From: an uncultured Lachnospiraceae bacterium
GTDB taxonomy: Bacteria; Bacillota; Clostridia; Lachnospirales; Lachnospiraceae
Length of the DNA: 64,000 nucleotides
Assembly: GCA_947571775.1 (NCBI GenBank)
Contig: CANOZK010000001.1
Span: 1 to 64,000, forward strand
Direction: 5' to 3'
Below are positions 58,316-64,000 of this stretch, piece after piece. Position numbers and translations under genes: made by a program. The notes under the pieces are model-generated. The model ran no database searches, was not told the origin of the DNA, and saw nothing but the letters and a program-made list of their open reading frames with translations. Each line of letters begins with the position of its first letter. Position 1 is the stretch's first letter.

Positions 58316-59566
58316 TTAATTAATGCTTAAACCAGCGCTTGCATATCCTACAACTGTATTGAGCAGAGACAATCCACTGGCTGTCGCTGAAAATACCAGC
58401 ATCAATCGGGTTTGAGCTGTTACCGGGATATTCAGCCCTGTAAGAGAACCATTTAAGAGCGTACCAATAGATACCACTCCAGAAAGTGATGGCGTCAGAT
58501 TTATCAGGGTTCCAGCAATCGGAGAAAATACATTATCCGGCGTTGTAGACTGATAAATTTGCGCCCTTACTGCAACAGTGGAACCTATCAAAGAAAGTGA
58601 CACTGTTGTACTAAAGAATGCGCTGAATGAAGTGATAATGCCAGCACGCGGAACCTGGAATGCAAAGTTAGAAAGCGTTCCACTGGCATTTGTAATATTA
58701 ATCGTTGATCCCAAAAGTGTAAGACCTTGCGCACTGCTTCCGAAGCCAACAAAAGCAGGAAGTCCCGCAAGCCCTCCGGCAATTGTCGTCAAGGAAACTG
58801 GAAGCCCTGATGCAAACGGGATAATCGCTCCTGTACCCGCAACCCCTGTGGGACCTGTCGAACCCGTTGCGCCAGTTGCTCCCGTTGGGCCGGTCGCTCC
58901 ATCTGCTCCCGTTGCCCCAGTCGGGCCGGTTGCTCCATCTGCTCCTGTTGCCCCAGTCGGGCCGGTCGCTCCATCTGCTCCCGTTGCTCCAGTTGGGCCG
59001 GTCGCTCCGACTGCTCCCGTTGGACCAGTAGGTCCCGTCGGGCCGTCATCCCCTGGGCATCCTTTCGGCCCCTGGGTTCCGATCGGACCGGTCACACCCT
59101 GAATACCTTGTGGACCGGTTACGCCTTGCGGTCCCATTGGGCCGGTTGGGCCAGTTGGGCCGGTCGGTCCCGGAACACCTCTGGGTCCCTGAAGCCCGAT
59201 ATCTCCCTGTGGACCCGCTGGTCCCACCGGACCTATTGGGCCTGCTGGTCCTTGGGAACCGACATCACCTTTCGGGCCTTCACACCCCGGATCACCCTTC
59301 GGGCCAATATCGCCCCGGACACCCTGGATACCCTGAATACCCTGCGGGCCCGCGTATCCTCTCGGCCCTGCAAAGCCTCTCGGCCCCGTGTTTCCAGTAG
59401 GTCCTACCGAACCTGTATTTCCCCTCGGTCCTCTCGCTCCAGGAGCGCCAGGAATACCCTGTGGCCCCATAGGCCCCTGATCGCCCTTGGGTCCCGCTGG
59501 CCCACGTTCACAACAGGAAGGCCGACATTGATTTTGACAGTTGCTATATAAATTTCTATTATCCAT
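58316..59566 (-). CDS. Collagen-like exosporium-type glycoprotein (BclA/BclB-like)
   Basis: A 416-residue protein from ATG 59566 ([20 protein letters not shown]); AAAGGATATG lies 10 nt upstream. A Cys-rich N-terminal tag precedes a collagen block of about 220 residues of Gly-X-Y (about 22-245), at first varied and charged, then [12 protein letters not shown] repeats rich in Thr, a usual site of O-glycosylation. The C-terminal domain of about 170 residues, starting [20 protein letters not shown], is the beta-rich BclA/BclB-type trimerisation head. There is no signal peptide, as expected for mother-cell-made spore surface proteins. A SigK-like promoter (59628-59656) supports that timing. Confidence 0.92.
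58881..59024 (-). repeat. 36-bp tandem repeat in the collagen region
   Basis: Four near-identical 36-bp units (GGGCCGG starts at 58887, 58923, 58959 and 58995) encode [12 protein letters not shown]. Units differ mainly at silent T/C positions. Copy number is likely to vary by slippage, changing stalk length. Confidence 0.85.
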
Positions 59567-59627
59567 AAAAATCATATCCTTTCTAAATTATCTGAAAATA
59601 TGCTCAAAAAGCATGTTTTTCTACAAA

Positions 59628-59672: not shown

Positions 59673-59861
59673 TAGAACGTGCCTAGAGATTGCTTGAAAA
59701 CCGCTTTACGTCATCTATGCATCACAATTTGTGGAAGATTTTCCTCAAATGAGGGAGGCGTAGCAGGAGGCTACGCTGACTGAAAATGGGGAAATCTTCT
59801 GCAAAGTCGGACATATAGTTGGCGTGAATGAGTTTTCAAACAGACTCTAAAACACGTTCTA
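59673..59861. mobile_element. 189-bp MITE with TA ends
   Basis: Terminal inverted repeats of about 30 bp: left TAGAACGTGCCTAGAGATTG, then CTTGAAAAC; right end read inward TAGAACGTGTTTTAGAGTCT, then GTTTGAAAAC. The outer TA at each end may be a target duplication, as for IS630/Tc1-type elements. Inside are a perfect hairpin GCGTAGC...GCTACGC (59758-59776) and an outer GAAGATTT/AAATCTTC stem. No coding capacity. The right end contributes TAG, the stop of the glycosyltransferase gene. Confidence 0.75.
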
Positions 59862-60935
59862 AGAAATTTGCAGATTGTCAAAATACTGTTTGTTATAAAG
59901 ATATGCTTTGGAATAGGGTTTACAGGCTCCTGCTCTCTCATTGTATTCTTTTGCCTTTTTTTGGTCTCCTATTTTGTCAAAACACACACATAACTGCAAA
60001 AGGGGAACATAATCATAACAATCCGGCAGGACAAATCCGCTTGCACATTCATTTCTGGGTCTGCTCAACGCCGTTTCATACCAATAGACGGCAAGATGAT
60101 AATTCCCATGCTCCAAAAAATATTTCCCGATTTCACAGCACAACTCAGCCCTTGGCAAATCATAGCTCATGCTGCGCAAAAGAACATTTAATGCAGATTG
60201 TTCCTGCCCCAGGCAATTATAACAGTTGGCACAAATGAAACATGCTTCTATTTTATTTTCAATCCATCCCTCCTTTAAGAGCAAGAATTGTTCCAGCACA
60301 GAAATAGCTTCTTCGTATTGTTTGTGATAGTATAATTCCCGCCCATAATAATATTGATGCCGCGGATCTAAAACCTTTCCCTCTGCCAGTATTTTCCGGT
60401 ATATGTTTAGATTCCGGTCAGGATCTCCGGCATTCATTTTCTTATGGGAAATCGCAATATCAGAGTAAACGATACTGCCGCTTGGAGGAATCACTTCATG
60501 GACAGCACCGATCCAGCGATATTGCGAGCAGTTTCTGATCCATCTTTCCCGAAAATAAGAAAAGGAAGGTTTGCCAGCTTCATCAAAAGAAGTATGATAT
60601 TTCATCATTACAATATCCACATCCTTTGACAATGTCTGCTTTAGCTGCAGAAACTTATCCTTTTGCGTTTCTTCTAGAATATCATCTGCATCCATCCACA
60701 TACAGTAATCCATAGACGCTTTGGAAAAAGAATAGTTTCTGGCATCAGCAAAATCATCTTTCCATGGATACGAATAGATCTTCGATGTGTAATCGGACAC
60801 TATTTTCACCGTCCGGTCCACCGAACCTGTATCTACAACAATTATCTCATCTACAAGTTCCGCTACGCTGTCAAGGCAGAGCGCAATATGCATCTCCTCA
60901 TTTTTGACGATCATGCAAAGACTTATTGTCGCCAT
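59859..60935 (-). CDS. Family 2 glycosyltransferase with TPR tail, collagen-locus
   Basis: A 358-residue protein. The GT-A domain (about 1-190) begins ATISLCMIVKNEEMHIALCL, has VDTGSVDRTVKIV, and MWMDADDILEE as the DxD region. The helical C-terminal half is TPR-like (YYYGRELYYHKQYEEAISVL). Paralogue of 41050-42048. It begins 24 bp after the second collagen-like gene ends and is upstream of the first, so it is a good candidate for O-glycosylating their Thr-rich collagen stalks. The stop codon TAG (59859-59861) belongs to the end of a MITE, so the natural C-terminus may be shortened. Confidence 0.85.
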   Translation of the reverse strand: MATISLCMIVKNEEMHIALCLDSVAELVDEIIVVDTGSVDRTVKIVSDYTSKIYSYPWKDDFADARNYSFSKASMDYCMWMDADDILEETQKDKFLQLKQTLSKDVDIVMMKYHTSFDEAGKPSFSYFRERWIRNCSQYRWIGAVHEVIPPSGSIVYSDIAISHKKMNAGDPDRNLNIYRKILAEGKVLDPRHQYYYGRELYYHKQYEEAISVLEQFLLLKEGWIENKIEACFICANCYNCLGQEQSALNVLLRSMSYDLPRAELCCEIGKYFLEHGNYHLAVYWYETALSRPRNECASGFVLPDCYDYVPLLQLCVCFDKIGDQKKAKEYNERAGACKPYSKAYLYNKQYFDNLQIS

Positions 60936-60959: not shown

Positions 60960-61862
60960 TTATTGTCTGCTAAGCTTTTCTATACTCAGGTTCATATTGA
61001 TTTTGGAAGCGCCTGCTGAAGAAACCCATGCAAAGAACAGTGTGGAGGCACTGGGTATTTTGATAATAAAATATCTTGATATTACAAGTATCTTTTTTCG
61101 TTTTGTCGCCTCCGCATATGCGGTATACGCCGTCTGCACACAATCATTAAATATTGGCGTAAGCTTTATAAAACCATGCCTTTTCATCACCGTGGATATA
61201 TAATAATAGATAGCATAGCATCCAGGAGTCAACAGTACGGAATAATCATTGCAAAGAGAGATATTTTGGGTTATATCGGGTATGTCTATTTTAAGCGGAA
61301 GGCTGGCTTTCTCCGGTAAAATAAGCGCCTTTCCTAAAAACGATGCAAATATACTGTTTTGCGGATAGCCGGGAGGTCCTGCTGGACCACGCGCGCCAGG
61401 TTCTCCTCTTGGTCCCTGAGGCCCTGTTGCGCCCTGAGGCCCTTGCGGTCCTGTGACTCCCTGTGGGCCGATCTCTCCGCGTTCACCAGGACAGCCCGGC
61501 GGACCTGGCTCTCCTCTTGGTCCTTGCGGCCCTGTTTCTCCACGTTTAGCGGGCCAGCCTGGCAGAGCGGATTCTCCTCTTGGCTCCTGTGGGTCGAACT
61601 CCTTGCATTCATCGGGACAGTTTGATGGTTCTGGTTCCTCTACTAGCTCCATCAGCCCAGACTCACAACAACAAGAAGAATCATCTTCCACCGATTCAGT
61701 GGTGTTTGTATGCTGAGAAGAATCTGATACAACCGTGTTTGCCTCAAGTACACAATTGGATGAAGGTTGAGCGGTGCTTGGATTATAGTTTCTATTGAAA
61801 TTCCTTCTCATGCCAAACAGATTCGGCGGATTAAACATCCCATTAGTATTAAAATTATTCAA
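60960..61862 (-). CDS. Second collagen-like spore-surface protein
   Basis: A 300-residue protein starting at TTG 61862 ([18 protein letters not shown]) after GGTGGTTTTA. An Asn/Phe-rich N-terminus (1-35) is followed by an acidic Ser/Thr linker with CCC and a [15 protein letters not shown] segment. The collagen block is short, about 75 residues (about 96-170, [20 protein letters not shown]). The globular C-terminal domain of about 130 residues ([20 protein letters not shown] onward) is unlike the BclA head of its neighbour. No signal peptide. Probably a second exosporium filament or its adaptor, in one operon with the glycosyltransferase. Confidence 0.82.
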
Positions 61863-62145: not shown

Positions 62146-63615
62146 TTAAGTTAAGCTTTTTAAAAATTCTGTACCTTGGCTTATGATTTTTTCGTACCTT
62201 TTTGCGTTCACGCTTTTCAGCCATGCAATTTTTCCTGAGATTTCATGTACGGTTTTGCTAGATACAGAACCGCCGGAATCTTTTAATTTCTGTGCGTTAT
62301 GTATAGAAGCTTTTAATATTTTTACCCATTTCTTAGGAACGCCGATCTCTTCGTTGTTAATGACAATGCCCGTAATATACTGCCGGTTGTTCTTTCTCAA
62401 TATATGGGTTTTTTCTTTTTTCATATGAAAGCCTTCTGCCTCTATAATTTTATTTATGCTGTTTAAAAAGCTTCCTATGGAGAAATCAGCGACGTCGCCC
62501 ATATAGCTAAAACTCATATCATCGGCATATCTCGTATAAGTAATCCCCAGCTTTTTACATAAACCATTGATACGCTTATCCATGTTTCGGCATATAATAT
62601 TTGTAATCATAGGACTTGCCGGAGAACCCTGCGGCAATATTCGATCCGATGTCTTGATGTATTTGATCTCTCCTTTTATTTCAAGCGGCATTCTTTCGCA
62701 GTAGGTGCAAAGCATCGCAAGCAGTGACGCTATATAGCCAGAGTAACCAAAAGATTGATATAAACCTCTTACGCGTTCAAATGTAATGGTTGGAAAAAAG
62801 TTTTCCAAATCAATGTTTATCAATAAATCAGGACTTGTTTGATGCACTTTTGCACCTGTAAGGATAGACCGGTATTTGATAAACCCATGAGATAAATCAG
62901 AGATTTCTACCTTTTGCAGGATCTGATCCAATATCCGTCTCTGAACAGCTTTCAATTGCGTTTTAGGCGCGGCGATATGACGTGTTCCGCCGCTTTTTTT
63001 CGGGATATCGAAACGGTAATAATTGTCAAAGGTAATGACATCCCTATGGTATGTCAGATAACGCAAAGTACTATACTCTATCTGCAAAAAGTCGGCGAGT
63101 TCTCTGTCTGTTTCTATCACAGGCATCTGTTTTTTTTCTAGTTTTTGTACATCTGTTTCTTTCTTTCCTAATAGGTTAGAATAACCTTTTCCAATAAATA
63201 GAATAGTTTCTGCTTTTCGTTTGTTCCACGCTTCCGATTTTAACTGTTTTTGCCGTTCCCTCTCTGCTTTTTTCTCCGCTCGTCTGGCTATGGATTCTTT
63301 CATAATTTCCTGAGCAACCGCGGAACGAATTTTTTCATAATCCCAAGTATCCTGGTATTCTTTTTTTAAATGAGAAAGCTTTTTTTCTATTTCCTGTTTT
63401 TCCTGATAAACATTCGATATTTTCTCGGAAAGTTTTTGAAATTCATCCAACAGCTTTTTTCTGTTTTCAAAGTCTTCTGCTGTCTCATTTTGCTGGCGTT
63501 CATATGGCGTTGGAAGATCGCTGGGCCAAAACCCGTATTCCTGCATTTTTAGAAAGGTAAATTCTTTTTTACCCATATTGTTTACTAGCTCTCTATATTC
63601 GGCTTTTGTATCCAT
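62146..63615 (-). CDS. Retron-type reverse transcriptase with long coiled-coil N-terminal extension
   Basis: A 489-residue protein. Residues 1-190 form an unusual charged, coiled extension (AEKKAERERQKQLKSEAWNK). The RT follows: DIPKKSGGTRHIAAPK, LSHGFIKYRSILTGAKVHQT, LINIDLENFFPTIT (first catalytic Asp), ILPQGSPASPMITN and YTRYADDMSFS (catalytic YADD, about 363-366). Retron marks are the NAxxH-like TGAKVH (253-258) and the VTG-like QYITG (412-416). There is no maturase or endonuclease domain, so it is not a group II intron protein. ATG 63615 overlaps the stop of the SWIM gene (TAATG). Likely copies part of a structured RNA into msDNA for phage defence. Confidence 0.9.
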   Translation of the reverse strand: MDTKAEYRELVNNMGKKEFTFLKMQEYGFWPSDLPTPYERQQNETAEDFENRKKLLDEFQKLSEKISNVYQEKQEIEKKLSHLKKEYQDTWDYEKIRSAVAQEIMKESIARRAEKKAERERQKQLKSEAWNKRKAETILFIGKGYSNLLGKKETDVQKLEKKQMPVIETDRELADFLQIEYSTLRYLTYHRDVITFDNYYRFDIPKKSGGTRHIAAPKTQLKAVQRRILDQILQKVEISDLSHGFIKYRSILTGAKVHQTSPDLLINIDLENFFPTITFERVRGLYQSFGYSGYIASLLAMLCTYCERMPLEIKGEIKYIKTSDRILPQGSPASPMITNIICRNMDKRINGLCKKLGITYTRYADDMSFSYMGDVADFSIGSFLNSINKIIEAEGFHMKKEKTHILRKNNRQYITGIVINNEEIGVPKKWVKILKASIHNAQKLKDSGGSVSSKTVHEISGKIAWLKSVNAKRYEKIISQGTEFLKSLT

Positions 63616-64000
63616 TATAACAACATCTCCATAATATCATTGATTTTATATTCTTTTTCGTATTCCAAATTTTTTAGCTTTAACAACTTATAAGAAGCGA
63701 CGTAAAGCGCAAGAATATGAGCGCACGGATCCGAAAGATTTCTCTCGCCTCTTTTAAATTTTGGACAGCTACAATCTATCTTGGTAATTTGTCCATCCTG
63801 GTCAATGACAATTTCCGCAGAGGATGATCTCGCGTCTTCCTTGTATGTTGTCGTGAATAGAAACTCCTGTTGGCGGGAGTATCGCACCTTCATATTGTCA
63901 AATGTAAGTTTGCTGATTTTTTGTACATCCATTTCAATATCAGAAACTTCATAAAGTTCTTCTGGAATTGGAGCATTGCATAAATGGCGGAAACGCACTT
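63615..64000 (-). CDS. SWIM zinc-finger protein, cut by window edge
   Basis: The last 127 codons of a gene entering from the right. The stop TAA (63615-63617) overlaps the RT start. The visible part holds a SWIM motif CSCPKFKRGERNLSDPCAH (CxC...CxH) preceded by EIVIDQDGQITKID, and a mixed N-side resembling the strand-rich lead-in of SWIM proteins. SWIM fingers bind DNA or protein. Translational coupling to a retron RT makes it a dedicated partner. As I recall, type XIII retrons combine an RT with a winged-helix-SWIM protein and an ARM-repeat protein; the latter would lie beyond 64000. N-terminus unknown. Confidence 0.75.
   Translation of the reverse strand, partial: VRFRHLCNAPIPEELYEVSDIEMDVQKISKLTFDNMKVRYSRQQEFLFTTTYKEDARSSSAEIVIDQDGQITKIDCSCPKFKRGERNLSDPCAHILALYVASYKLLKLKNLEYEKEYKINDIMEMLL

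Follow-up and report, generated by a model that had tools for sequence, protein, structure and literature searches.

We consider it about 75% probable that the right edge of the window, meaning the whole stretch of 64,000 nucleotides analyzed here (the beginning of a contig of 307,568 bases), contains part of a type XIII-like retron operon whose predicted RNA lies on the opposite strand before the operon and would be copied by the reverse transcriptase (RT) into msDNA, the partner proteins likely being restrained until phage infection. In the literature, retrons are described as a single msr-msd-RT transcript (PMC8867640) and as toxin/antitoxin defense systems (PMC12262390), and retron type XIII is named as a PADLOC match in Variovorax (PMC11953036). 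Among the literature matches listed, titles and abstract openings mentioned neither type XIII RNAs nor msr-msd arrays. The system described here is of a known kind; its RNA organization was not found in the literature searched and may have been mentioned earlier.

Organization of the operon

The operon crosses the window's edge and was read on past position 64000. The minus strand carries genes for an alpha-solenoid protein, a SWIM protein and an RT, whose ends overlap (Table 1). A sequence-only reading of the window had proposed an RT gene starting within the stop codon of a SWIM gene and had recommended a search beyond 64000 for a repeat-protein gene. The RT frame is indeed open over 489 codons, its ATG shares one base with the SWIM stop codon (TAATG), the SWIM frame continues past 64000 to a protein of 585 residues, and a long alpha-solenoid gene was found next to it, the two overlapping by 4 bases. 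The solenoid ORF extends upstream to a GTG (945 aa, contig 65369-68206); its real start is most likely the conserved ATG at contig 68152, giving 927 aa, where a AGAAAGGA-type ribosome site common to the relatives is present. Beyond the solenoid gene follow tsf and rpsB (identified by eye).

Table 1. Features of the retron locus (window and contig coordinates are identical)
Feature	Position	Strand	Basis
Retron-type RT, 489 aa, with conserved N-terminal extension (about residues 1-160)	62146..63615	-	RVT_1 91 bits, RT_XIII 518 bits, Ec86 RTs nearest
SWIM_XIII gene, 585 aa	contig 63615-65372 (in window: 3′ part, 63615..64000)	-	SWIM_XIII, Pfam SWIM
Alpha-solenoid gene	contig 65369-68152	-	ORF, predicted fold
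Operon promoter-like site	contig 68317-68345	-	promoter scan
RNA promoter-like site	contig 68376-68403	+	promoter scan
msr-msd-like RNA	contig 68413-68612	+	conserved 200-nt covarying element
Terminator-like hairpin	contig 68629-68670	+	by eye

Just below the retron, two collagen-like Gly-X-Y proteins (window 58316-59575 and 60960-61862) are encoded around a glycosyltransferase-like gene (59859-60935); all three look like ordinary surface genes. The leader of the window's solenoid gene contains three GAATCCC/GGGATTC pieces with two pairing options (L002:10207-10310), which were not found in the solenoid leader of the relative L005.

Assignment of the reverse transcriptase and its relatives

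Sequence comparisons support a grouping of the RT with retrons, as the earlier reading had assumed. None of the observations that this reading had named as refuting a retron was made, a SWIM partner, a long alpha-solenoid partner and, in relatives, a covarying RNA all being present. Pfam RVT_1 matched residues 204-412 with 91 bits, and among the PADLOC models RT_XIII scored 518 bits over residues 4-485, compared to 265 bits for the runner-up. The best PDB matches were retron Ec86 RTs with 203 bits; the highest-scoring chain with a group II name reached 57 bits, and Drt2 36 bits. The NCBIfam group II score was only 64.5 bits, and none of the NCBIfam retron models passed its cut-off (best, 227 of 450 bits). 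The active-site motif YADD was confirmed at residues 363-366, and the RT motifs named NAxxH and VTG read GAKVH and ITG, respectively, in this protein. The N-terminal extension ahead of the RT core, also noted before, measures about 160 to 200 residues, is helix-rich by eye, and contains residues that are invariant across 27 aligned RTs (window included). As it lies inside the RT_XIII profile, it belongs to type XIII rather than being a clostridial oddity. The host genome contains a single RT of this kind at E 1e-3.

A scan of genome contigs for the RT yielded 79 loci, drawn from 80 of 114 relatives. The gene order solenoid-SWIM-RT was conserved in 54 loci (L005-L058, RT identity 53-91%); within this set, SWIM was found in 53 and the solenoid in 51, the exceptions being cut by contig ends. 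The other 25 loci, with an RT identity below 40%, had neither SWIM nor solenoid at E 1e-5. On the basis of identity and the RT tree, we distinguished clade A (RT identity 74-91%), whose branch had a support of 93/99, from clade B (53-63%). L059 was dropped from this tree, the placement of its Methylobacterium row is unsure (branch 4.87), and its "divergent_upstream" group comprises 12 rows with RNA plus L013, where no RNA copy was found.

A predicted msr-msd RNA before the operon

Because the SWIM gene occupies the usual place of the RNA, the sequence-only reading had concluded that a retron RNA must lie elsewhere. The 645-bp gap before the solenoid ORF contains a conserved element of 200 nt. 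It precedes the whole operon on the other strand, and 4.8 kb separate it from the RT. Iterated nhmmer searches found 57 copies in the clade loci and none in the 25 outside loci. A covariance model was built from 53 of the 57 copies, leaving out two contig-cut copies (L007, L027), a near-copy of L009 (L026) and one degenerate copy of L041. It gave 58 matches above 100 bits, i.e., 57 distinct copies after removal of a duplicate (L004, identical to L032). These copies are spread over 45 of 55 loci of the clade, counting the window, and the next match had 16.9 bits. None of the 25 outside loci appeared among the matches listed, and none had an RNA match above 20 bits. As most copies had been used to build the model, independent support comes from the left-out copies, from those detected in whole-genome searches and from the lack of matches in the outside loci. 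In the window's genome, the only strong match is the one at contig 68413, the next being one of 15.3 bits inside the RT gene, which rules out an RNA downstream of the RT in this locus. Rfam gave no match at gathering score, and its weak matches correspond to chance.

Retron RNAs are characterized by an a1/a2 helix, a G after a1, an msr stem-loop and a long msd hairpin. The fold of the element consists of a closing 13-bp a1/a2 helix, an msr-type stem-loop of 9 bp and a long hairpin, and 26 of the 35 consensus pairs change on both sides. In the alignment, 97.4% of the cells were paired. Shuffles gave 83.0%, none of 500 reaching the observed value, and sliding the structure gave 35-48%. The window's RNA has a folding energy of −86.4 kcal/mol (z = −7.97). 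All 53 distal hairpins fold, with 20 to 30 pairs and z values of −2.9 to −11.0 against letter shuffles. The G directly after a1 (G18) is invariant and is inferred to be the branching G, i.e., the priming site. By sequence and fold, the element thus has the a1/a2 helix, msr stem-loop and msd hairpin expected of an msr-msd RNA cognate to the RT, and the same covarying fold recurs in the relatives.

Both the UNCG tetraloop in RNA and the C-GNA-G loop in DNA are stable loop types. C-UNCG-G was present at the tip of the distal hairpin in 47 of the 53 copies; in RNA form this CUNCGG tip is a UNCG tetraloop, whereas in DNA form its complement would be a C-GNA-G loop.

Strand and promoter-like site of the RNA

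The fold alone does not give the orientation, since the opposite strand folds nearly as well (z = −7.76 versus −7.97). Before the window's RNA, the plus strand contains TTGACA-16-TATAAT (12 of 12 positions), 9 nt from the RNA 5′ end. In clade A, all 20 loci had a promoter score of at least 11 ahead of the first or only RNA copy; in clade B, 13 of 22 did, and the other 9 first copies had no promoter of that score. On the opposite strand the corresponding numbers were 1/20 and 0/22. L007 and L027 (clade A) and L041 (clade B) are excluded from these counts. Retron RNAs have the order a1-msr-msd-a2, which the element shows on the plus strand only. Because of the promoters, the position in clade B (see below) and the canonical retron order, the RNA was assigned to the plus strand. 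An RNA on the operon strand, considered for a T run after a2, is contradicted by the promoter direction and by the sense placement in clade B. The hairpin following a2 (68629-68670) was absent from the terminator-scan listing.

Placement of the RNA in relation to the RT gene

A local RNA copy was present in 44 of the 54 loci, in two arrangements. In all 22 Lachnospiraceae-type loci with a copy (window included), the RNA is located upstream, with the opposite orientation. In all 23 Clostridium-type loci with a copy, it is located downstream of the RT in sense orientation. Measured from the end of the RT alignment, the median distance there is 101 bp; 19 of the 23 copies start within 300 bp and the rest at 0.8 to 3.2 kb. 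In L022, about 2.6 kb separate the RNA from the solenoid gene, which it precedes. No local RNA was found in the clade A loci L006, L013, L017, L020 and L025 or in the contig-cut loci L018 and L021.

Searches of the whole assemblies for the ten loci lacking a local copy showed contig breaks in three cases, an RNA on a different contig in three and no copy in four (L006, L013, L047 and L051). The three assemblies with a promoter-bearing RNA on a different contig (G418, G420 and G422) are all MAGs, for which mis-binning is possible, and they occupy separate places among the divergent-type loci on the RT tree. The operon contig of G422 agrees in length and positions with that of G212 and is the same one; the stated completeness of G212 is 98% and its contamination 1%. 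In G419, G421 and G432, the RNA only seemed to be in trans: the contigs are broken, and it has the solenoid gene or the RT as its neighbor (genes by eye). The usual layout with msr-msd and RT in one transcript was not encountered, the RNA being on the opposite strand, downstream or on another contig. The RNA thus placed appears, from its sequence context, to be detached from the RT and to have its own promoter-like site.

Tandem RNA arrays

In some relatives the RNA is repeated in tandem: six units are present in L024, four in Clostridium sp. ASF356 (L057, a complete chromosome), three in L041, and two each in L019 and L029. Further copies were found in G420, whose distant contig has two, and in G421, where a short contig has one complete and one cut copy. 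A clear promoter (score 12-13) precedes the first unit alone in L024, L057, L019 and L029, later units scoring 8.75 to 10 with shuffle p values of 0.24 to 0.98, and each of these four arrays is therefore likely to be transcribed as one RNA. The L041 units scored 9, 10 and 11 and the G420 copies 12 and 11.

The distal msd was the most variable segment in four of the five array loci. By alignment columns, it was 38% identical among the ASF356 units (other segments, 76-94%), 48% in L024 (81-92%), 49% in L019 (76-100%), and 67% between two units of L041 (78-100%); the exception was the L029 pair, with 83% in the distal msd and a lower value of 78% in the linker. When the ASF356 units were realigned pairwise, the distal stems were 45-62% and the cores 83-94% identical. 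The RT genes of ASF356 and L024 are 94% identical, and their RNA units match in order with best distal identities of 90, 75, 98 and 80%, L024 having extra copies of the first and the last unit.

The arrays could alternatively consist of one active unit each and of neutral tandem duplicates that are decaying. Two L024 units are near-copies of their neighbors (86% and 91% distal identity) and one L041 copy is degenerate (107 bits versus 158 and 160), as would be expected for such duplicates. However, the aligned array units retain a1/a2 and the fold, the stems vary with maintained pairing around a constant core, and unit order and identity were kept between ASF356 and L024. We therefore regard decay as doubtful, although less so than the alternatives discussed below; the conserved order and the variation of the distal msd argue that units are kept and that their stems diversify in most arrays.

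The SWIM and solenoid proteins

The whole SWIM protein matched SWIM_XIII with 594 bits, compared to 61 bits for the piece in the window, and Pfam SWIM was also matched. Structure modeling predicted a two-domain PCNA-like clamp fold, with low Foldseek TM-scores among the matches listed (up to 0.27 for the query and 0.57 for the target). Sequence profiles gave no support for PCNA homology, the hhalign probability being below 2% and level with scrambled controls, in a comparison of low profile diversity with 27 PCNAs from genomes related to a Lokiarchaeota MAG. Compared to sliding clamps (PCNA, DnaN and 9-1-1), the predicted structure differs by a coiled coil inserted in the first domain and by an additional C-terminal winged helix plus SWIM.

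The third protein is an alpha-solenoid by predicted fold and, with 29-79% identity among the relatives, the product of the fastest-evolving gene of the operon. It matched WGR_XIII with 37 bits over residues 416-867 only, and three relatives reached 63-82 bits. Pfam WGR did not match it, no Pfam domain was above cut-off in the solenoid proteins, and VIA-align found nothing above the level usual for helical repeats. The type XIII plan named in the sequence-only reading thus held for the RT and the SWIM protein, whereas the third component shows this weak match. Because the solenoid protein matches WGR_XIII over its middle only, the clostridial lineage appears as a divergent branch of type XIII rather than a textbook member. 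Pfam, NCBIfam and PADLOC revealed no catalytic domain in either partner protein, so that any effector activity assigned to them is a guess.

Comparison with known retrons

With type XIII retrons (PADLOC-DB RT_XIII, SWIM_XIII and WGR_XIII) the system shares the RT and SWIM families and the RNA layout of a1, stem-loop, long hairpin and a2. The locus of Methylobacterium bullatum (NZ_LR743510.1; WGR_XIII 836, SWIM_XIII 706 and RT_XIII 584 bits) also has the same order solenoid-SWIM-RT. It differs in its strong WGR_XIII partner, where the solenoid protein described here has a 37-bit match and no Pfam WGR match, and in the spacing of SWIM and RT, which are about 317 bp apart there but overlap here with the RNA detached. 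The clostridial RNA model found no match in the Methylobacterium locus.

In addition, 347 genomes of the order around Salinarimonas rosea were searched for RT and SWIM by BLAST. A close RT (E 1e-90) was present in six genomes, and five of the six fetched stretches contained SWIM (none in L178), with SWIM-RT gaps of about 300 to 780 bp. Five gap sequences, from four Salinarimonas-order genomes (L176 left out) and Methylobacterium, were aligned. All contain an RNA on the RT strand that is bounded by a1/a2 and has a long hairpin; for 29 of 93 pairs, one or more rows had both sides changed. One of the gaps is nearly identical to that of Methylobacterium. As these canonical loci hold the RNA between SWIM and RT, detachment appears to be characteristic of the clostridial branch.

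The classical retron Ec86 shares with the system RT homology (203 bits) and an RNA of the msr-msd type. Classical retrons of this kind are not known to have arrays or a SWIM or solenoid partner. They also differ by carrying msr-msd and RT in one transcript (PMC8867640), whereas the RNA is detached here.

Proposed mechanism and its alternatives

By analogy with known retrons, the system is likely an anti-phage retron. The RT would copy the detached msr-msd RNA into msDNA, primed from the invariant G after a1. From what is known of retron biology, the msDNA would assemble with the SWIM and solenoid proteins and likely hold both in check; disturbance by a phage would free the partner proteins, and the outcome would be abortive infection. 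In relatives with arrays, one transcript would contain two to six msr-msd units that have their core in common and differ in the distal msd stem, and one RT would make several msDNAs from it, each possibly tuned to a different trigger. As the SWIM protein has a predicted PCNA-like clamp fold, the effector step likely acts on DNA, e.g., by loading on msDNA or replicating DNA. A broader version, a modular retron in which independently transcribed arrays serve one RT and several msDNA sensors report to a clamp-fold SWIM protein coupled to replicating DNA, may hold or fail with even odds.

An RNA that is an RT template for a product other than classical branched msDNA, e.g., a DRT-like protein-primed or repeat product, would make the system a retron relative with another chemistry. 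The separate placement of RNA and RT and the promoter-like site of the RNA would suit this view, given that retrons are described as a single msr-msd-RT transcript (PMC8867640). Nevertheless we consider it improbable, as a1/a2 helix, invariant G, msr stem-loop and long msd hairpin fit the retron layout and the RT is nearest to Ec86 and not to Drt2. That the RNA regulates the operon, as an antisense RNA or an attenuator, instead of being a template is very improbable: in the window's clade it diverges from the operon promoter, the −35 boxes of the two promoter-like sites of the window being about 31 bp apart, but the downstream position in clade B and the location on another contig in three MAGs make a fixed cis role unlikely, and the layout is that of msr-msd.

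If the system is a retron with detached RNA, as we favor, it departs from the usual picture of one RNA beside one RT, since the RNA is loose and in some relatives arrayed with variable stems. What the msd stem senses becomes directly testable, because related units use a common RT and differ mainly in the stem. For making multiple DNA donors with retrons, an RT able to use several natural templates from a single transcript would be of interest, and a true clamp fold of the SWIM partner would give a structural hint as to how type XIII might touch DNA.

Distribution and further observations

Among 397 genomes of the family, the RT was found in five (E 1e-60); the RNA, searched at E 1e-5 in a second draw with the same listed handles, was found in the same five. 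Viral contigs contained no full-length RT relative, only 11 partial matches, and phage records no RT relative at E 1e-40. The RNA model gave nothing above 14 bits in viral loci, and it confirmed none of 13 viral-contig matches from a pattern scan. On plasmids, the only RT relative at E 1e-60 was the Methylobacterium locus.

In L030 and L035, an inverted repeat of the CTATGTTTTA/TAAAACATAG kind is located upstream of the solenoid gene, with arms about 70-80 bp apart; it was missing from 11 other clade B loci checked. The contigs of L041 and L046 are filed as Lokiarchaeota and bear clostridial-type retrons, which may reflect mis-binning or transfer; PCNA_N had no match in the L041 assembly and one in the L046 assembly. 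In Oceanirhabdus seepicola (L036:4434-5822), a TnpB-like ORF, recognized by eye, splits the operon between the solenoid and SWIM genes.
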